From Deltaproteobacteria bacterium (GTDB lineage: Bacteria > Desulfobacterota > Binatia > UBA12015), in contig VGTG01000043.1 of assembly GCA_016874795.1 (NCBI GenBank), forward strand, positions 1 through 38,029: 38,029 nt of DNA, written 5' to 3'. The notes under the pieces are model-generated. The model saw only the letters and a program-made list of their open reading frames with translations, did no database searches and was not told the origin of the DNA. Shown one piece after another: positions 1 through 9,224 of the stretch. The translations under genes were made by a program, and so were the position numbers. Numbering within the stretch: the first letter of the stretch is position 1; each line of letters starts with the position of its first letter.

Positions 1-523
1 GATCGACGATGCCGGCCGCGACCGCCTCCTCGCCGCCGAAGCGCTTCCCGGTCGCGATCACGCGGTGGACGGTACGGACGGGTAGACGCGCCTGCAGGAG
101 CGCCGTCATGCCGGGATGGAGCGGCACGCGCATGTCGACCTCGGGCATGCAGAAGAAGCCGCGATCGGCGCGCATCACCTGGAAGTCGTGCGCGATGGCC
201 ATCAGCGCGCCCGCGCCGAACGCGTGCCCGTTCACCGCGGCGACCGTCGTCGCGGGGAACGTCAAGATGCGCGCGAGCACCGCGAGGACCTCGGTCAGAT
301 AGTCGCTCGCGCCGCCGGAGCCGAGCGATCCCATGTGATCGAGGTCCAGGCCGTTCGAGTAGAACTTCCCCGTCCCCGTCGTGACGAGCGCCGCAGGCGA
401 GCCCGCGGACTCGACCTGTTCCAGTCCCTCGCGGAGCGCGTGCAGCACTGCGGGCGTGAAGCGGTTCTCGCCGGCGTCGAGCCGGAGGACGAAGACGTTC
501 CCTCGGCGTTCGAATCGGACCAT
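1..523 (-). CDS. Enoyl-CoA hydratase/isomerase family protein (3' end cut by window edge)
   Basis: About 174 residues are present, starting at ATG 523; the C-terminus lies outside the window. The reading frame shows the crotonase fold: GKFYSNGLDL (first oxyanion-hole strand), then NGHAFGAGALMAIAHDF (second oxyanion-hole loop and helix), then DRGFFCMPEVDM. The SNGLDL and MPEVDM blocks resemble plant and peroxisomal delta3,delta2-enoyl-CoA isomerases more than classical hydratases, so shifting a double bond during unsaturated fatty-acid oxidation is the likelier job; this is inference. The gene begins 40 bp after the stop of the LLM oxidoreductase on the same strand, so the two are probably co-transcribed. 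It is a typical cytosolic beta-oxidation enzyme, and reaction type cannot be fixed from this part alone. Confidence 0.85.
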   Translation of the reverse strand, partial: MVRFERRGNVFVLRLDAGENRFTPAVLHALREGLEQVESAGSPAALVTTGTGKFYSNGLDLDHMGSLGSGGASDYLTEVLAVLARILTFPATTVAAVNGHAFGAGALMAIAHDFQVMRADRGFFCMPEVDMRVPLHPGMTALLQARLPVRTVHRVIATGKRFGGEEAVAAGIVD

Positions 524-1567: not shown

Positions 1568-3793
1568 ATGACCGCCCTGCCCTCTCGCGCGCCGCCGGCG
1601 CGAGCGTCCCGCGTGGCGCTCCTCGCCGTCGTCGCCGCACTCGTCTTCGCCGTGGCGACGCCTTGGGTCCTTCGCCCGTGGTTCCTCGCCGACGACGAGC
1701 TGCCGGCCAGCGACTTGACGCTCGGCACGATGGAGGACACGGACCTCCTCCTGAACGCGTGGATCCTCGCGTGGATCGCGCGCGCCGCGACGTCGTCCCC
1801 GGGCGAGATCTTCGCCGGCAACATCTTCCACCCCGCGCCGAACGCGGTCGCCGGCTCGGAGAACATGCTCGCGCACCTTCCGGTCTCGGCGCCGGTGTGG
1901 ATGGCGACGAAAAGCGCGCTCGCGGTGCTGAAGGCGGTCGTCTTCGAGAGCTTCGTCCTCTCGGGGCTCGCGATGTGGGCGTTCGTGTACTTCCACACGA
2001 GAAGCTTCGCGGCGGCGCTCGTCGCGGGAGCCGCGTTCACGCTCGCGCCGTGGCGCGTGCAGAACGTGCCGCATCCGCAGTACCTCGGCATCCAGTGGAT
2101 TCCACTGGCGCTGCTCGGCGTCGACCTGTGGATCGAGCGACGACGCCTCGCGGCGCTCGCCCTGCTCGCGGCGTCCCTCGCGCTGCAAGCGCTCGCGAGC
2201 CTCTATCTCGGCTACTTCGCCTTTCTCCTGGTTCCCGTGTACGCGCTCGTCCGGCTCGCCGACGTGCGCGAGGAGCGCGGACGAGCGGCGCTGGGACTGC
2301 TCGCCGGCGGCGCCGCAGGCGCCCTCGCCGCGGCACCGGTCGCGATCCCGTACTGGATGGCGCGCGCACAGGGGATGATCCCGGCGTACGAGGTGGCGGC
2401 GTGGGGCGATTGGTCGTTCAAGCCGTGGTGGTACGTCGGCGCTCCGTTCCTCCACCGTGCCGGCGCGGTCGTGCTCGCGATCGTCGCTCTCGATCTCGTG
2501 ATCCGCGCGGTGCGCCGCGTCCGCGGCGCGCAGGTCCTCGAGACGTGGCGTTGCGAGCGCGCGCTCTGGATCGTCGCGGCGATCGCGGCGATCCTCTCCG
2601 CCGGTCCCTCGCTCCGCCTTCCCGGCGGGCTCTCGATCCCGACGCCGTACACGCTTCTCGCGGAGATCGTCCCCGGGTTCGCCGTCGTGCGCGGCCCCGG
2701 ACGGTTCTTCATGATCGTGCTCGTCTGCCTGTGCGCGATCGCGGGCCTCGCCTTCGCGCGCTGGTCGGCGGGATGGACGGCGAAGCGCGCGACGGCCGCC
2801 GCGCTCGCCGCCGTCGTCGCGTGCGCGCTCGTCGCCGCGCCGCGTCCCGCACGGACGATGTCGGCGCAGCTCGGGACGAGCACGCCCGACGTGTACGACT
2901 GGCTCCGCGATCACGCGGGCAACGACGCCGTGCTCGAGCTGCCGGCCGCAGCGACCGACCACGACGTCGTCGGCAATCGACGGAACGCGGCCTACATGCT
3001 CGCGAGCACGCAGCACTGGCGGCCGATCCTGAACGGCGTGACCGGACACAATCCGCCGATCGCGCGCTTCTACAACGCGATCACGCGGCGGCTGCCCGAT
3101 CCCGAAGCGCTCGGTCTCCTCGTCGACGTGGTCGACGTGCGCTGGATCGTCCTGCATCGCGACGCGCTCCTGCCGCACGAGCAGGCGCTCTGGAAGAACG
3201 TCGACGCGGAGGGCCTCGCGCCGGTCGCGCAGATCGGCGAAGCGGAGGTCTTCCGGGTGACGCGCCCGCCGGAGCGGGACTGGCGCAAGGCTCTCCTCGC
3301 CGCGATGACGGGACCGCAGGAGAAGACGTTCGACGGCATCTCGACCGCGCCGCTCGGCGAAGCGTGTCGTGCCGCGCGGATCCTCTCCGTCGACGCACCG
3401 GAGGTGATCGCGATGGTCCCCGTGCCGCTGCCGGTCGCGGTCGAGCTCGAGAACGAGAGCGAATGCCGCTGGCCGACCCTCGGCGTGCACGCGCGCGGCC
3501 TCGTCGGCTTGACGTACCGCTGGACCGATCCCGACGGGCAGCCTTTCGTCTATCCGCCGGCGCCGTTCTCGCCGTTCGTCGCCACCGTCGAGCCGAAGGA
3601 GAAGGTTCGCGACACGCTCGTCGTCGTCCCGCCGTCCGGACGCGACGGGCTCTGGCGGCTCGAGGTCGAGCTCGTGCAGTGGGGCGAGGCCGCGCCGCTC
3701 GCATCGCGTACGGTCTCGGTCGAGGTGCGTTCGTTCCGCGACGAAGCGCCGTCCGGCCCCGATCCCTATCCCGAGCCGCCCGCTCCGAGCTGA
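1568..3793 (+). CDS. Polytopic membrane protein, glycosyltransferase-C/YfhO-like, with C-terminal Ig-like domain
   Basis: 741 residues from ATG 1568 (an in-frame ATG at 1526 exists but lies in the tight divergent spacer). A signal-anchor helix is followed by an acidic loop (DLTLGTMEDTD) and about ten hydrophobic helices to roughly residue 430, then a long soluble part. This layout fits GT-C-fold glycosyltransferases or YfhO-like proteins working with lipid-linked sugars at the periplasmic face. The last ~110 residues (VAVELENESECRWPTLGV onward) look like an Ig-like beta-sandwich of the NBR1 type. The protein is a clear paralogue of the one at 6984-9224: PTPYTLLAEIVPGF and VDVRWIVLHRD match SPYVLLQEWVPGF and VDVGWILVHRD there. 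Its 3' end overlaps the convergent membrane-protein gene by 28 bp. Donor and acceptor are unknown. Confidence 0.85.
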   Translation: MTALPSRAPPARASRVALLAVVAALVFAVATPWVLRPWFLADDELPASDLTLGTMEDTDLLLNAWILAWIARAATSSPGEIFAGNIFHPAPNAVAGSENMLAHLPVSAPVWMATKSALAVLKAVVFESFVLSGLAMWAFVYFHTRSFAAALVAGAAFTLAPWRVQNVPHPQYLGIQWIPLALLGVDLWIERRRLAALALLAASLALQALASLYLGYFAFLLVPVYALVRLADVREERGRAALGLLAGGAAGALAAAPVAIPYWMARAQGMIPAYEVAAWGDWSFKPWWYVGAPFLHRAGAVVLAIVALDLVIRAVRRVRGAQVLETWRCERALWIVAAIAAILSAGPSLRLPGGLSIPTPYTLLAEIVPGFAVVRGPGRFFMIVLVCLCAIAGLAFARWSAGWTAKRATAAALAAVVACALVAAPRPARTMSAQLGTSTPDVYDWLRDHAGNDAVLELPAAATDHDVVGNRRNAAYMLASTQHWRPILNGVTGHNPPIARFYNAITRRLPDPEALGLLVDVVDVRWIVLHRDALLPHEQALWKNVDAEGLAPVAQIGEAEVFRVTRPPERDWRKALLAAMTGPQEKTFDGISTAPLGEACRAARILSVDAPEVIAMVPVPLPVAVELENESECRWPTLGVHARGLVGLTYRWTDPDGQPFVYPPAPFSPFVATVEPKEKVRDTLVVVPPSGRDGLWRLEVELVQWGEAAPLASRTVSVEVRSFRDEAPSGPDPYPEPPAPS

Positions 3794-6063
3794 GGCGCGA
3801 ACCTCCGCACCGGCGCCGCCGACTCGATCCGCGGATCCTCGAAGCCGGCGATCTCCGGACCGCCGGGCTTCCAGGCGAGCGCCTCCGTCGAGAAGACGAT
3901 CTCGATCGGCTTCCCCGCCCACGCGGTGAGATCAACGTCGAGCGGCGTCCAGAGGCGATCCTTCGGCCGCGCGTACACGTCCTTCTCCACGTCGAGCAGG
4001 ACGTCATCGCGGCCTTCGCTGCGCACCGCGACGCGGAGACGGACGGGGAACGGCCCGAGGCTCTGCCAGAGATCCGGATGAACGCCGGCGCGAAGGCGAA
4101 GGCGCGCGCCGGCCGGGACCGCGAGCGGAATCGCGACCTCGCTCCCGCCGCCTTCGCCCGGCGTGACGTGCAGCACGCGCGGGGTGAGCGGCCAGGTCGC
4201 GACGCCGGCGACCTCGCCGACCGTCGCGTCGCTCGTCTCGCCCGCACGCGCGCGGCGCGCTCGCGCGCTCTCGAGATCGTCCGTCAAGCGGCGCACACCT
4301 CTCGCGACGTCCTCCGCCGCGGGCGCGCGCGGCTCGCCGAGGCCGCAGATCAGGCGCTCCGGAGCCGGCCCGACGACCTCCGCGAGCTCGTAGTTCTCGG
4401 CGAGGTACTCGTAGAGCTCCGGTACGTTGAACTGCGGCCGCGGTGCGAACGGGGTGTGCAGGAAGACGTACACGATGCTCGCGTCCGGATGCTCGCGGAG
4501 CTGCGCCAGGATCTGCTGATCGCGATCCGCGTACGCGTCGCGCGGCCAGAGCCAGATGAAGCGACCGAGCGTCGGACGGTCGGCGAGGAAGCTCAGGACC
4601 GGCAAGCACGGCACGACGAGCACGGGCCGGTCTACGGGCGTGCGCGCGAGCGCCTCGATCATGCCCGAGTAGGTCGCCGCGTCCTCGGACCGCACCCAGA
4701 CGGTCCCGCGCTCGCCCGCGACCGGCGTCGAGTAGGTCTCGACGGCGCCGAGCGCGAGTCGCAGCGAGGCGAAGAGGTACGCGATGCCCGCCGTCGCGAG
4801 CGCGCCGATCGCGACCCGCCTCGTGCCGCCGCGGAGCCAGGAGACGAGATCGACGAGCTGCCGCGTCGCCATCGGCACGAAGGGAACGAGCAGGATCGAG
4901 AGGTGGATCCAGTCGCGCGGCTTCGAGAACGCCGCCCACATGCAGCCGGCCCAGACGAGCTGCACGGCGCGCGCCGCGACGTCACGCCCCTCCTCCGGAT
5001 GCGCGCGAAGGCGACGCCAGCCGCGCACGACCGCGACGAGCTCGATGATCAGGGCGAGATAAGGAAGTCGATAGCCACCCTTCAGGACGAGCTCGAGAAG
5101 GTTCGTCTCGCGAACGACCCAGCTTCCGAGGACGTCCCGCCAGTGCAGGTCCCAGAGGAGCCCGGGCATCCAGCTGAAGAGAAAACGACGCACCTCGGGG
5201 TCCTGCCCCGCCAGCGGGAAGAGCGGCGGCATGTCGAGGTAATCGCCGGCCGCGGGACCGCCGCCGCTGTCGTAGAGCGGATTCAGGAAGATCGGGTCGT
5301 AGAGCGTCTGCCAGAGGTACGGTCCGAGCGCTCCATGGACCGCGAACCAGGCGCACGCGACGAGGAACGGCGCGGCGCCGGCGACGACGAGCGCGACGAG
5401 TGGCTTCCCGCTCTCGGGCTCGCCGCCGGCTCGCCGTCGCACGCGCAGGCCGACGAGCAAAGCCGCGAGGCACGCGATCGATCCGAAGGCGCCGGAGTCC
5501 TGCTTCGTCACGAAGGCGAGGCCGACGAGAATGCCGGCCGCGATCGCGTGCGAAACACGTGCGGGCCGCTCCGCACGCAGCACGAGGAACGCCGCGGTCA
5601 CGAGCGCGAACCCGATCGTCGCGTAGTGCAGCATGTGGAAGTGCGGCCACGTCCACAGGCGAAACGCGATCAGCCAGAGCGCCGCGAGGGCCGCGGCGGT
5701 GCGTCCGGTGAGACGACGCGTCAAGAGATAGATCGCAGCGACGACGCCGGAGAAGATGAGGAGCATCGCCCAGCGGCCGACTTCGAAGTGCTCGCCGAAG
5801 AGCGCGAGCAACGCCGCCGTCGCGTAGAAGCCGAACGGACCCGCGATGTGGTTCGAGTCGAGGTAGAGAACGTGCCCGTCGAGGATGTTGGCGCCGATCT
5901 GGAGGACGTGCCACTCGTCGCAGCCGCCGGCGCTGCGGTAGAGCAGCGGCTGGTGCACGAGCGCCGCGAGAAGGCCGAGAGCGGCGGCGATCCAGCCGTC
6001 GGCCGCGCTCGCCGGCTCCCCTCCCGCTCCCGAAGGTGCGCCGCGGACGCTCGCTTCGCTCAC
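3766..6063 (-). CDS. Integral membrane glycosyltransferase (GT-C/RgtA-like) with periplasmic beta-sandwich tail
   Basis: 765 residues. The start is set at GTG 6063, where GTGA overlaps the stop of the upstream LLM gene by 4 bp; the same frame stays open further upstream but there only reads antisense-like Arg-rich sequence inside the LLM gene. The N-terminal half has about ten membrane helices, with GGCDEWHVLQIGANILDG after the first, the usual place of the acidic catalytic residues of GT-C/PMT enzymes. FVTKQDSGAFG and SKPRDWIHLSILLVPFVP are typical loops. The last ~180 residues form a soluble domain (LWTPLDVDLTAWAGKPIEIV), a jelly-roll pattern often fused to such enzymes. Likely it transfers a sugar from a polyprenyl carrier to a surface glycan or protein; the target is unknown. 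The overlap suggests translational coupling with the LLM oxidoreductase. Confidence 0.82.
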   Translation of the reverse strand: MSEASVRGAPSGAGGEPASAADGWIAAALGLLAALVHQPLLYRSAGGCDEWHVLQIGANILDGHVLYLDSNHIAGPFGFYATAALLALFGEHFEVGRWAMLLIFSGVVAAIYLLTRRLTGRTAAALAALWLIAFRLWTWPHFHMLHYATIGFALVTAAFLVLRAERPARVSHAIAAGILVGLAFVTKQDSGAFGSIACLAALLVGLRVRRRAGGEPESGKPLVALVVAGAAPFLVACAWFAVHGALGPYLWQTLYDPIFLNPLYDSGGGPAAGDYLDMPPLFPLAGQDPEVRRFLFSWMPGLLWDLHWRDVLGSWVVRETNLLELVLKGGYRLPYLALIIELVAVVRGWRRLRAHPEEGRDVAARAVQLVWAGCMWAAFSKPRDWIHLSILLVPFVPMATRQLVDLVSWLRGGTRRVAIGALATAGIAYLFASLRLALGAVETYSTPVAGERGTVWVRSEDAATYSGMIEALARTPVDRPVLVVPCLPVLSFLADRPTLGRFIWLWPRDAYADRDQQILAQLREHPDASIVYVFLHTPFAPRPQFNVPELYEYLAENYELAEVVGPAPERLICGLGEPRAPAAEDVARGVRRLTDDLESARARRARAGETSDATVGEVAGVATWPLTPRVLHVTPGEGGGSEVAIPLAVPAGARLRLRAGVHPDLWQSLGPFPVRLRVAVRSEGRDDVLLDVEKDVYARPKDRLWTPLDVDLTAWAGKPIEIVFSTEALAWKPGGPEIAGFEDPRIESAAPVRRFAPQLGAGGSG

Positions 6064-6932
6064 ACGATCTCGGCGACCCGTTCGAGCTGGTCGAGAGTCG
6101 CGCTCGTCGGAACGAGGATGAGCTCGTCGGCGCCGGCGTCCTTCACCTGCCCGAAGATCTCGCGCAGCGCGAAGGCGGAGGTCGCTCGGCACGTCGGGGC
6201 AATCGCGCTCGCGACCTCCTTCCCGAGGAAGCCGAGGTAGCGGCCGACGTAGTCGTCCATCTGCCCGCGCGCGTTCGGCCCGAGGGAGTACCAGCAGCTC
6301 GTCACGAGACGCGGCGGCTTCGTTCGGCCCTCCTCGCGCCACGCGGAGCGCGCGACCTCGAACGCGCTCGCGATCTCGTCCTGTGCCGGTCCGAAGCTGA
6401 AGCCGCAGAGACCGTCCGCCCAGCGCGCCGCGCGACGGATCGACTTCGGCATCAGCGAGCCCGCGAGGATCTCGGGTCCGCCCTCCTGCACGGGTCGCGG
6501 TCCGATCGGCGCGGCGTTTCCTTCGATCGGCTCGCCCGCCCACGAGCGACGGAGAAGTGCGACCTGCTCCTCCATGCGCGCGAGGCGGCGTCCGAACGAC
6601 GCACCGACGGCCTTGTAGTCCTCCTCGCGACCGCCGACGCCGACGCCGACCGAGAGCCGTCCGCCGGAGAGCACGTCGAGCGTCGCGAGCTGCTTCGCGA
6701 TCAGGCCCGTACTGTGCATCGGCAGGACGACGACCGTGAGCGCGAGCCGGATCCGCTCGGTCACCGACGCCGCGGCGGCCATCGTCATCAGGAGCTCCTG
6801 GTTCGGGTACGTGATGCGCTCGCCGCCGGCGAGCGACGAGAACGGACCCGCGTCGGTCGCGCGCATCCAGGCGAGGAGGTCTTCGCGGCGGAGGCCGGAG
6901 ACCATCGTCGGCAACGTCATGCCGATTTCCAT
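6060..6932 (-). CDS. LLM-class flavin/F420-dependent oxidoreductase (second copy)
   Basis: 290 residues, ATG start at 6932. Family blocks: MEIGMTLPTMVSGL at the N-terminus, ERITYPNQELLMTMAAAASV, TGLIAKQLATLDVLSGGRLS (the conserved 'LSGGR' loop) and GVGVGGREEDY. It is only distantly similar to the copy at 564-1493, so this is not a recent duplication. The stop overlaps the GTG start of the downstream membrane glycosyltransferase by 4 bp, an unexpected partner for an F420/FMN oxidoreductase. The physiological substrate is not evident. It could be an F420-dependent dehydrogenase or a monooxygenase of the alkanal type; the sequence does not decide. Confidence 0.88.
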   Translation of the reverse strand: MEIGMTLPTMVSGLRREDLLAWMRATDAGPFSSLAGGERITYPNQELLMTMAAAASVTERIRLALTVVVLPMHSTGLIAKQLATLDVLSGGRLSVGVGVGGREEDYKAVGASFGRRLARMEEQVALLRRSWAGEPIEGNAAPIGPRPVQEGGPEILAGSLMPKSIRRAARWADGLCGFSFGPAQDEIASAFEVARSAWREEGRTKPPRLVTSCWYSLGPNARGQMDDYVGRYLGFLGKEVASAIAPTCRATSAFALREIFGQVKDAGADELILVPTSATLDQLERVAEIV

Positions 6933-6983: not shown

Positions 6984-9224
6984 TCATTCGCCTTCGCAGA
7001 TGAGATCACCGTCGCGGTTCGCGTAGCCCTTCGCGCATCGCTGCGAGCGGCGCGTCTCGCGCAAGCCGCCCTTCCCGTCCGCGCAGGTACATGCGAGCGT
7101 CGTACCGTCCCACGTGCAGGCGCCGCAGCTCTCCCAGTACGAGCCCGGCGGACCGTCCGCGAGGCGCGGAGCGGCGCGGATCGGGATCTCGAGAGCGGAA
7201 ACGCCGCACTCCTCGAGGAAGCCGTCACCGACCTGCAGGAGACGCACGAAGAGCCGATAGTCGCCTGCCGCCTTCGGGACCTTCACGAGGAGCATCGTCT
7301 TCACGGAGCCGCCCGGCGGAACGTCCTGCAGGAGCGGCTCGGATTCGGCGACGCACGGCTCGCCCGCGAAGCCGAAGCAGGCCATCGCGCGTACGAGGTG
7401 CCGCGGCACGAAGCCGAGGCCCGGCCACGTGCGCTCGCCACGATTCTCGATCGTGACCTTCACCGGAAGCGCGGACCCCGCGGGCTGGACGCCGTAGATC
7501 GGGGCCGTGAGGCGGATCTCGCCCGGACACGCCTCGCCGATCGGCTCGAGCGGGATTCCGCCGAGCGTCCGCTCCGTGTCGAACAGGTGCGCCCGCGCAT
7601 CGCTCACGCTTCGCCGCCCGACCCGCACGAGGAGATCGCCGCCGAAGCTTCTTTCGATCTCGAGCCCTTCGGGAAGCGCTCCGTCCCACGCCTTGCCACC
7701 GTCGGGAATTTGATCGCGGTGCACGAGGATCCACCCGACGTCGACGGCGTCGGTCAGCTGCGCGAAGGACTCCTCTCTCGGCAGCCCCATTCCTCGCCAA
7801 ACGAGATACGTCGCGCTGTCCGGGCTGTAGGCGCTGTACCCCTGGACGATCGGAAGCCAGTGGAACGTGCTCAGGTACATGCGACGCGCCGCTTCGAGGA
7901 AGCCCCTCGGCGGGAGCTCGAGCAGCGGACGTCCCTCGCCGTGCTCGGCGAGCCAGTGGTACGCCTCGCCGACCTCGGCTCCGGAAGGACGCCGATGCAT
8001 CTCGTTCTTCGGAAGCGGCGCGTACGAAGCGAGCGTGAGCGCCGCGATCGCGAGCGCACCCGCCCACGCGGCGCGCGGCGGTCGCGCGCGCAGGAGACGC
8101 TCGGCTCCGAGTGCGGCGAGGAGCGCCAAGCCGAGCTGCGCGACGAAGAGGAAGCGCCGCGTGCTGCGAATCGCGCCGAAGCCGGGAACCCACTCTTGCA
8201 GGAGGACGTACGGGCTCGCGAAGCGCTGGCCCTCGATCAGGATCGCGGGCCCGAGCGCGAGGAACGTCCCGAGCACGAGGAGCGCGATCGCCAGAATGCG
8301 CGGCCACCGAGCGCCGCTCCACGGCGGCGCGAGCGCCGCGATCGCGAGCGCCGTTCCGATCCAGCCGATGCCGCCGCCGAGGAGATGCTGCGCAACCGCC
8401 GCGTTCGCGATCTGCGGCGACAGGCCGAAGGACGGCAGACCCTCTGCGCCGTACGAGGGAATCAAACCCCAGCTTCGGAGCCAGACGTAGGGAAGGCTCG
8501 CGAGGAGGAACGGCGCCGCAGCTGCGGCGAGCGCCACGCCGAGACCGCGCACGCGACGTCCGTCGAGCCGCGCGCGCCAGCGGTAGAGCGCGAGCGGCAG
8601 GTACGCGGCGTACGCGAACGCCGAGCCGTACGCGAGATAGAACGAGCAGAGCATCTGCAGCCCGAGCGCGACCGCGAGGCCGACCGCATGACGCGTCCGC
8701 CCGCGCTCGAGCCAGAGCTCCGTGCAGAGCAGGGCGAGCGGCAAGTAGCCGACGCCGAGCACGTGGAAGTGGTGGAGCGTCTCGAGGCGCGCCGGATAGA
8801 AGGCGTAGAGGAGCCCGCCGAGGAACGCGGCGGGCGCCGATACGAAGCGCCGCGCGAGGAGGAAGAGCCCGATCCCGCAGAGCGGATGCAGGAGGAAGAC
8901 CACGGCGTTCGTCGCGAGCACCGGATTTCCGGTCGCGAGATAGAACGGTGCGAAGAGCGGCACCCAGCCGAGGAAGTGCTCGGAGTAAGCGAGCGCGAAC
9001 GGCGCCGGGTAGAACGCATTCGCGTGGAAGAGGTTCCACGGCGCCGTGAGAAGCGCGTGCGTGTCCCACGCGAGGCTCCAGACGATCAGGTAGACGTCCG
9101 CGTGGACGAGGCGGCTCTCGCCCGCGCCGTAGAGAAGGTGCGTCGACGCGAGCTGCGGCAGCGGCCAGAGCCACCATGCCGTCACGACCGAGTACGCGAG
9201 GAAGACGCCCGCCGCGCGGCCCAT
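6984..9224 (-). CDS. Polytopic membrane protein (paralogue of the gene at 1568) with Ig-like domain and C-terminal CVNH-like module
   Basis: 746 residues, ATG 9224. About eleven membrane helices occupy residues 5-410; then comes a soluble region with LLELPPRGFLEAARR, a segment VDVGWILVHRD shared with the paralogue, and an Ig-like domain (VTIENRGERTWPGLGFVPRH). Residues ~695-746 form a six-cysteine tail (SYWESCGACTWDGTTLACTC, then Cys730 and ICEG near the end) matching the spacing of cyanovirin-N homology repeats: a Ser-Tyr-x-x-Ser-Cys start, a central Thr-Leu-x-Cys-x-Cys and a final Asn-x-Asp-Gly-x-Leu-x-Cys. CVNH domains bind oligomannose glycans, so the protein may recognise the glycan it builds or a host/fungal glycan (inference). 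The paralogue at 1568 lacks this tail. Confidence 0.85.
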   Translation of the reverse strand: MGRAAGVFLAYSVVTAWWLWPLPQLASTHLLYGAGESRLVHADVYLIVWSLAWDTHALLTAPWNLFHANAFYPAPFALAYSEHFLGWVPLFAPFYLATGNPVLATNAVVFLLHPLCGIGLFLLARRFVSAPAAFLGGLLYAFYPARLETLHHFHVLGVGYLPLALLCTELWLERGRTRHAVGLAVALGLQMLCSFYLAYGSAFAYAAYLPLALYRWRARLDGRRVRGLGVALAAAAAPFLLASLPYVWLRSWGLIPSYGAEGLPSFGLSPQIANAAVAQHLLGGGIGWIGTALAIAALAPPWSGARWPRILAIALLVLGTFLALGPAILIEGQRFASPYVLLQEWVPGFGAIRSTRRFLFVAQLGLALLAALGAERLLRARPPRAAWAGALAIAALTLASYAPLPKNEMHRRPSGAEVGEAYHWLAEHGEGRPLLELPPRGFLEAARRMYLSTFHWLPIVQGYSAYSPDSATYLVWRGMGLPREESFAQLTDAVDVGWILVHRDQIPDGGKAWDGALPEGLEIERSFGGDLLVRVGRRSVSDARAHLFDTERTLGGIPLEPIGEACPGEIRLTAPIYGVQPAGSALPVKVTIENRGERTWPGLGFVPRHLVRAMACFGFAGEPCVAESEPLLQDVPPGGSVKTMLLVKVPKAAGDYRLFVRLLQVGDGFLEECGVSALEIPIRAAPRLADGPPGSYWESCGACTWDGTTLACTCADGKGGLRETRRSQRCAKGYANRDGDLICEGE

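Follow-up and report, generated by a model that had tools for sequence, protein, structure and literature searches.

The stretch of DNA analysed in this study (the window) is the 38,029-nucleotide contig VGTG01000043.1 of a Deltaproteobacteria bacterium assembly (GCA_016874795.1, class Binatia). An open reading frame (ORF) on its minus strand, at 6984-9224 (stop codon 6984-6986), encodes a GT-C-type membrane protein of 746 amino acids, the C-terminal end of which reads ...GPPGSYWESCGACTWDGTTLACTCADGKGGLRETRRSQRCAKGYANRDGDLICEGE. This C-terminal tail, the subject of the present analysis, is a single repeat of the CVNH type, that is, half of a classical CVNH domain. The repeat comprises residues 691-746 (6987..7154), as identified with a profile of five tails, a predicted half-fold and hhalign. 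It is preceded by an Ig-like beta domain (approximately residues 564-690, 7155..7535; VIA-align and Foldseek), which lies between the repeat and a GT-C fold composed of the membrane part and a first soluble domain (approximately residues 1-540, 7605..9224; VIA-align). All three parts are encoded on the minus strand.

A sequence-only reading of the window had described this protein as a membrane glycosyltransferase-type protein to which a cyanovirin-like module had been specifically added. The six cysteines that it placed in the final 52 residues (700, 703, 712, 714, 730 and 743) and the motifs SYWESC, TLACTC and NRDGDLIC were all found, and the predicted structure of the body is indeed that of a GT-C fold. 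The absence of the tail from the paralogue was also borne out by alignment. A paralogue in the window (1568..3793, plus strand; 33% identity over query residues 8-685) has the membrane part and the Ig-like domain in common with the window protein and lacks the repeat. In a 19-row alignment (window protein, paralogue and 17 of 29 fetched loci, the weaker loci being left out), the tail was present in only one of the 18 other rows, the orthologue from genome G003.

Relationship of the tail to CVNH repeats

The CVNH family became visible because the tails of relatives were aligned; the window protein alone reveals none of it. The alignment (A1) consisted of five tails, and the Pfam and PDB searches made with it allowed E-values of up to 10. 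When the A1 profile was compared with the PDB, all 17 matches were CVNH proteins (worst E 0.65). The best natural entry was microvirin (2y1s, E 2.1e-7), and the lowest E-value (3e-12) was obtained for engineered tandem dimers. These whole-sequence values are low because several repeats add up, and the best single stretch among the printed alignments had an E-value of 0.0041. In Pfam, CVNH was the sole family matched by the tails (four of five, best 5.9e-4), the window tail being the one that was missed. The NCBIfam model mannose_binding_lectin matched all five (best 7e-5); the window tail had E 0.0048 and 17.6 bits, where the cut-off is 80.

PF08881 gave two matches at E <= 0.01 in 148 genomes of the class and none in the source genome. 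One of the two lay in the G003 orthologue, on its tail (19.3 bits); the other, in G116 (L066), was discarded as a chance match in an 88-amino-acid frame with one stop. With hhalign, the tails matched L068, a small protein that itself scores PF08881 at 9.7e-19, with a probability of 98.0. By these profile comparisons, the tail is related to CVNH repeats. The CVNH identity proposed in the sequence-only reading was thus retained as a relationship, on the basis of the profile of relatives, the predicted fold and hhalign, and was revised in extent, as there is one repeat and not a whole two-repeat domain.

Predicted fold of the single repeat

Each of the five tail copies holds one repeat, whereas the classical CVNH domain holds two. 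In cyanovirin-N (CV-N), the domains are described as non-contiguous, A being formed by residues 1-38 and 90-101 and B by residues 39-89, and the two repeats share hairpins (PMC4926178, available part of the text). The window tail was folded with an alignment of 14 repeats in five model runs. The model presented a CVNH half-fold, with a three-stranded sheet (strands 14-19, 24-29 and 35-40) plus a hairpin (48-51/54-57), and with a predicted local distance difference test score (pLDDT) of 92.6 (90.5-92.6 over the five runs). The top 24 Foldseek rows were all CVNH, most of them with a root-mean-square deviation near 9-10 A. In VIA-align, the tail was superposed on CV-N 6x7h with Z 8.1 over 51 residues, at 1.8 A; the chain range of this match, 2..101, corresponds to the span of CV-N pseudodomain A, and rows 1-16 had similar chain ranges. 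Twenty-one CVNH rows (Z 3.6-8.1) ranked above the best unrelated row (2.8), and another CVNH row was at 2.6. Five CVNH rows, including the swapped dimer 4j4c, covered only 40 residues (tail 7..46 to 1..40). As the best matches span both chain ends of CV-N and the swapped-dimer rows only 40 residues, the model suggests that the tail hairpin occupies the place of the second repeat's hairpin in unswapped CV-N, i.e. that it is closed in cis; this reading uses the end residues of the alignment ranges, not coordinates.

Cysteine pairs

A second alignment (A4) brought together 14 repeats, namely the five tails and nine repeats from three proteins. Two cysteine pairs were invariant in all 14, at alignment columns 14/28 and 44/57. 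The former corresponds to Cys700 (7125..7127) paired with Cys714 (codon 7083-7085), the canonical CVNH cysteine pair and a putative disulfide. The latter corresponds to Cys730 (7035..7037) and its candidate partner Cys743 (codon 6996-6998), which flank the hairpin with NRDGDL and may likewise be linked. An extra pair, at columns 17/26, is formed by Cys703 (7116..7118) and its candidate partner Cys712 (codon 7089-7091); all of these codons are on the minus strand. Both cysteines of the extra pair were present in 8 of the 14 repeats and both were absent from the other 6; such joint presence or absence would be expected of a disulfide, in rows that fall into few related groups and represent few independent events. 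The same CxxC...CxC pattern was seen in repeat 2 of microvirin 2y1s. The tail would contain up to three disulfides.

Distribution of the tail

A search of 58 genomes with the tail gave strong matches in four, all of the source genus (the source genome and three others), at five places. Their E-values ranged from 3e-41 (the window itself) to 7e-13, and the next matches started at E 0.002. The two weak matches (E 0.002-1) that were read, L035 and L036, showed no CVNH pattern and were rejected. The G003 orthologue of the window gene (54% identity over residues 3-744) carries the tail, as does a second family, a different membrane protein of approximately 520 residues, in G001, G002 and G003. The tail pattern is above chance, because the same tail recurs in the G003 orthologue and in this second family (E 3e-16 to 7e-13), and because 20 columns of A1, including the six cysteines, are invariant across the five copies; the tail is also constrained in the three copies whose divergence is low enough for measurement. 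A DUF3604 gene (E 3e-172; L062, 5804-8122, minus strand) is located immediately upstream of the second-family carrier gene in G001, and a 71% identical ORF occupies the same position in G002.

The distribution of the tail was read, from the sequences at its boundary, as a probable addition, with loss in other lineages as the alternative. Nine relatives of the window protein (41-46% identity) match up to residue 682-693, and their frames extend at most 23 residues beyond. In the second family, the homologue in the source genome (443 amino acids, 38%) is tail-less and ends ...DYRAHLAESPAHMSDVDEALAPPER; at that endpoint, the carriers read ...DYxxHxxESPCHVNCGPxGSYY.... In G006 and G010, the match of the homologues goes no further than query residue 466-469. 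The candidate fusion in G013, suggested by a tblastn match reaching residue 734, was dismissed, as the frame (L008) ends 3 residues past the part matching 682. The G001 orthologue of the window gene (L162, G001:C88 near 122285-123279) is apparently broken, with stops, an apparent internal deletion and a partial tail.

At E <= 0.001, the A1 profile matched six of the 148 class genomes: the four of the source genus, G113 and the chance-like G034. The five tail copies in these class genomes were confined to one genus. The G113 match scores 43 bits with A4 and is a single six-cysteine repeat in a 321-amino-acid frame that has one hydrophobic segment, at its N-terminus. The phylum was searched as a sample, with the best 16 candidates per genome at most being scored. 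The A4 profile matched ten of 395 phylum genomes, the source genome among them; of the other nine genomes, five held three-repeat proteins, two held two-repeat proteins, one held a PLAT domain with two repeats and one gave a chance-like match. With the A1 profile, 40 of 297 phylum genomes had matches at E <= 0.1, and values below 1e-7 were obtained only for the source genome, three genomes of genus g117 and G299. The matches in G034 and G487 were set aside as 75- and 81-amino-acid frames with an internal stop. No other phylum match examined resembled a multi-span membrane protein, as judged from hydrophobic segments counted in six (one each) and from reading of L068, L069 and L070.

Among the CVNH proteins encountered in these phylum searches, the small products of L068, L069, L070, L141 and L142, from one genus of the phylum, have an odd number of CVNH repeats, three, where CV-N has two. 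A 627-amino-acid frame in G299 (L071 / L144) encodes a PLAT domain and, after it, two CVNH-like repeats.

The exact Trp-containing tail motif was also searched for in 84,980 species. Of the 33 stretches returned, 3 were judged real; two of these were in the metagenome-assembled genome JAUIFY01 and one was in JAJCZO01, which bear the labels 'bacterium' and 'Deltaproteobacteria bacterium'. G001, a carrier of the motif, was missing from the results. The remaining 30 stretches were regarded as chance, with unsuitable frames and no hairpin motif; nine of them score 13.0-26.0 bits in the profile, which was attributed to their having been selected by motif.

Selection on the tail

Substitution rates were estimated with NG86 counts in the second carrier family, over a tail of 50 codons. 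The tail had a nonsynonymous rate (dN) of 0.17-0.22 and a synonymous rate (dS) of 0.55-1.05, giving dN/dS of 0.16-0.35. The core had dN/dS of 0.12-0.18, so that the tail ratio reached at most double the core value. These values indicate that the second-family tail is under purifying selection and is not freely drifting. The sole pair available for the window gene is that with G003, in which the synonymous sites of the tail are near saturation; identity in this pair was 59% in the tail, 57% in the core and 44% in the Ig-like domain. Tail identity was 57-75% inside a carrier family and 43-51% across families, which is consistent with two old, separately evolving tail lines.

Membrane body and Ig-like domain

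The model of the whole window protein had a pLDDT of 88.3. In VIA-align, rows 1-41 for this model were GT-C enzymes or complexes containing one (Z 10.0-20.9), 9n9j_I being counted as an oligosaccharyltransferase (OST) subunit from its title. The closest were Pmt4 (Z 20.9, 4.1 A over 344 residues) and AftD (20.7, 5.2 A over 465), and other matches included yeast OST (20.4), PglB (18.4) and ArnT (17.7). This comparison barely tested the parts outside residues 1-541 and 567-630. On the predicted model, the body of the protein is a GT-C fold. GT-C glycosyltransferases are characterised by 8-13 transmembrane helices, by a DXD or modified acidic motif located in an extracytoplasmic loop and by the use of lipid-phosphate sugar donors. 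Approximately a dozen long helices precede residue 400 in the model, and six strong ones were obtained by simple hydropathy. In Pfam, the PTPS_related family scored 11.2 bits on the window protein, below its cut-off of 26.4, and no FW-like or Ig-like domain was reported. Asp43 (9096..9098, minus strand), in the presumed first extracytoplasmic loop, is a candidate catalytic acid, an Asp being found in all 18 rows with a letter at this position (19 rows, one truncated).

The Ig-like domain resembled a tail protein of phage SSV19 (Z 10.0, 2.7 A over 95 residues) and human ILRUN (FW domain; Z 9.7, 2.6 A over 104) in VIA-align, and ILRUN and NBR1 in Foldseek, with E-values from 2.7e-4 (NBR1) to 6.1e-4. 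The C-terminus probably lies on the outer, periplasmic side of the inner membrane, as suggested by alignment of the soluble part with ArnT and PglB and by a visual application of the positive-inside rule.

Proposed role of the tail

We consider it probable that the window gene encodes a GT-C enzyme with a periplasmic Ig-like domain and a cis-closed single CVNH repeat that serves as a carbohydrate-binding module (CBM). In this proposal, the protein would be an inner-membrane glycosyltransferase with a GT-C fold, and its C-terminal part, on the periplasmic side, would bear two small beta domains. The first, Ig-like, would be common to the paralogues, and the second would be the cyanovirin-type repeat, so far seen only in the source genus. 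The repeat would fold alone as one CV-N pseudodomain, with the hairpin returning onto the same chain and up to three disulfides substituting for the support of a second repeat. It might then keep the acceptor or the growing glycan near the active site. The chances are about even for a broader claim, that the tail is a portable, self-contained single-repeat cyanovirin module with three disulfides, which has been appended in one genus to the ends of two different membrane proteins, one or both of them GT-C enzymes.

The catalytic fold of the glycosyltransferase MGAT4A differs from GT-C. Like the window protein, MGAT4A has a lectin domain at its C-terminus, and a point mutation in this domain is reported to impair activity (PMC9296478, available part). 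The EmbB/EmbC enzymes, AftD and the GT136 enzyme ORF12 are also similar, in that they have extramembrane beta domains after the GT-C fold. EmbB is reported to have two extracytoplasmic CBMs (PMC7341804), and those of EmbC, AftD and GT136 to bind acceptor polysaccharide (PMC7341804, PMC11127046); in the accessible portions of these papers, they are beta-sandwich or Ig-like by description, not CVNH. A CBM role was thought likeliest by parallel with these GT-C CBMs and with the MGAT4A lectin domain. Glycan binding by the tail, and the identity of the glycan, are accordingly put forward by analogy.

The tail resembles the CVNH domain (PF08881; cyanovirin-N, microvirin, CYT-CVNH) in its profile, cysteine pair, Asn-x-Asp-Gly-x-Leu hairpin and three-stranded sheet plus hairpin. 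It differs from CVNH proteins in having a single repeat, which contains six cysteines, where they have two, in being fused to a multi-span membrane protein and, in the window copy, in the loss of the equivalents of E41, N53 and R76. The first repeat of the three-repeat proteins L068-L070 has the same six-cysteine pattern and is 31-43% identical to the tails, but these proteins are small and, with a hydrophobic segment at the N-terminus, presumably secreted; they have three repeats and no membrane enzyme. Neither a single-repeat CVNH protein nor a CVNH-glycosyltransferase fusion was found described in open-access titles and abstract openings. A single-repeat CVNH relative on a GT-C-fold protein would be a new combination of known kinds, with a putative function. 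If this is correct, a one-repeat relative of CV-N would show the smallest unit able to fold, and perhaps to bind, and would inform on the origin of the CVNH domain by duplication. The GT-C enzymes would gain a further type of CBM, and there would be a handle on the glycan made by a large paralogue family.

Several observations weigh against the proposed role. The Pfam check recommended in the sequence-only reading failed: neither the window protein nor the tail by itself matched CVNH. A phmmer search of the PDB with the tail alone returned two chance matches only (E 3.8 and 6.4). No site in the 148 class genomes attained the PF08881 cut-off of 24.5 bits, the best being the 19.3 bits of the G003 tail, and three whole carrier proteins scored 13.3-15.1 bits, under the cut-off. 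The best Foldseek E-value for the tail was 4.8e-3, with none at or below 0.001, and a Z near 8 is modest by VIA-align's own note. In the full-length model, resolution of the tail was poor, with a pLDDT of 39-51 in blocks of ten and two alignment rows; there was no CVNH row in the VIA-align of this model because of the low confidence of the tail there, which is no evidence either way. No DXD-type pair was found at Asp43. Apart from the two GT-C-type neighbours, the 24 other window ORFs scanned (a count that includes the PMT_2 neighbour) gave no sign of a polysaccharide gene cluster. The CBM of GT136 is reported to be dispensable under the conditions tested (PMC11127046, available part).

The pocket residues also count against it. 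The binding residues of CV-N are given as E41, N42, T57 and R76, with N53 closing the pocket (PMC9725752, available part). According to the A1-PDB alignment, with the window row placed by hand, the equivalents in the window tail of E41, N42, T57, R76 and N53 are Ala735, Asn736, Ser699, Gly717 and Ser695, respectively. The N42 equivalent is thus kept and T57 is replaced by Ser, while E41, N53 and R76 are missing. The E41 equivalent is kept in none of the five tails; the second family retains Thr and Arg at T57 and R76. As several CV-N pocket residues are not kept, simple binding of mannose (Man-alpha-1,2-Man), as in the CVNH family, is disfavoured, and the tail, judged on these residues, may have a ligand other than mannose.

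The incomplete pocket would also suit a structural or dimerisation device, in which exchange of the hairpin pairs two enzyme molecules and no sugar is bound. The hairpins of CV-N can swap between chains (PMC4926178, available part), and a single repeat lacks its usual partner. As the monomeric tail model was confident in all five runs and its best matches span both ends of CV-N, which is weak evidence, we regard this explanation as unlikely. It is more improbable still that the tail, left over from an earlier lectin fusion, is now decaying or neutral and plays no current role. The restriction of the five tail copies to one genus, the broken G001 orthologue with only part of the tail left and the few CV-N pocket residues kept would all fit such a remnant, but purifying selection on the second-family tail is comparable to that on its core, the five copies share 20 invariant columns, and the tail is conserved like the core between the window gene and its G003 orthologue. 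The CxxC and CxC spacings are common in metal sites, and the cysteines might on these grounds bind zinc or iron in a redox or metal site without any lectin function. This explanation is very improbable, as microvirin, a lectin, and the first repeats of the phylum CVNH proteins show this pattern too, the extra pair is present or absent as a unit (in rows from few related groups), and the fold match is to CVNH. The CBM reading was preferred to these three.

Genomic neighbourhood

The paralogue family is large: with 18 of 33 candidates scored, the source genome gave at least 18 matches, one of which is the window gene itself. A related-locus search with the full window protein against the genome contigs confirmed nothing. 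On the paralogue at 1568..3793, the YfhO family gave E 7e-5 and 21.8 bits, below the Pfam cut-off of 28.5. The neighbouring gene (3766..5985, minus strand; start provisional) encodes a PMT_2-type protein (PF13231, E 5e-10). A luciferase-like gene is located at 564-1493. The G003 orthologue of the window gene adjoins the same P-type ATPase (74% identity) and, on the opposite side, the counterpart of this luciferase-like gene (79%). In comparison with G003, the part of the window at 1568-6932 appears as an extra segment between conserved flanks; this segment contains the paralogue, the PMT_2 protein and a luciferase-like gene within it.
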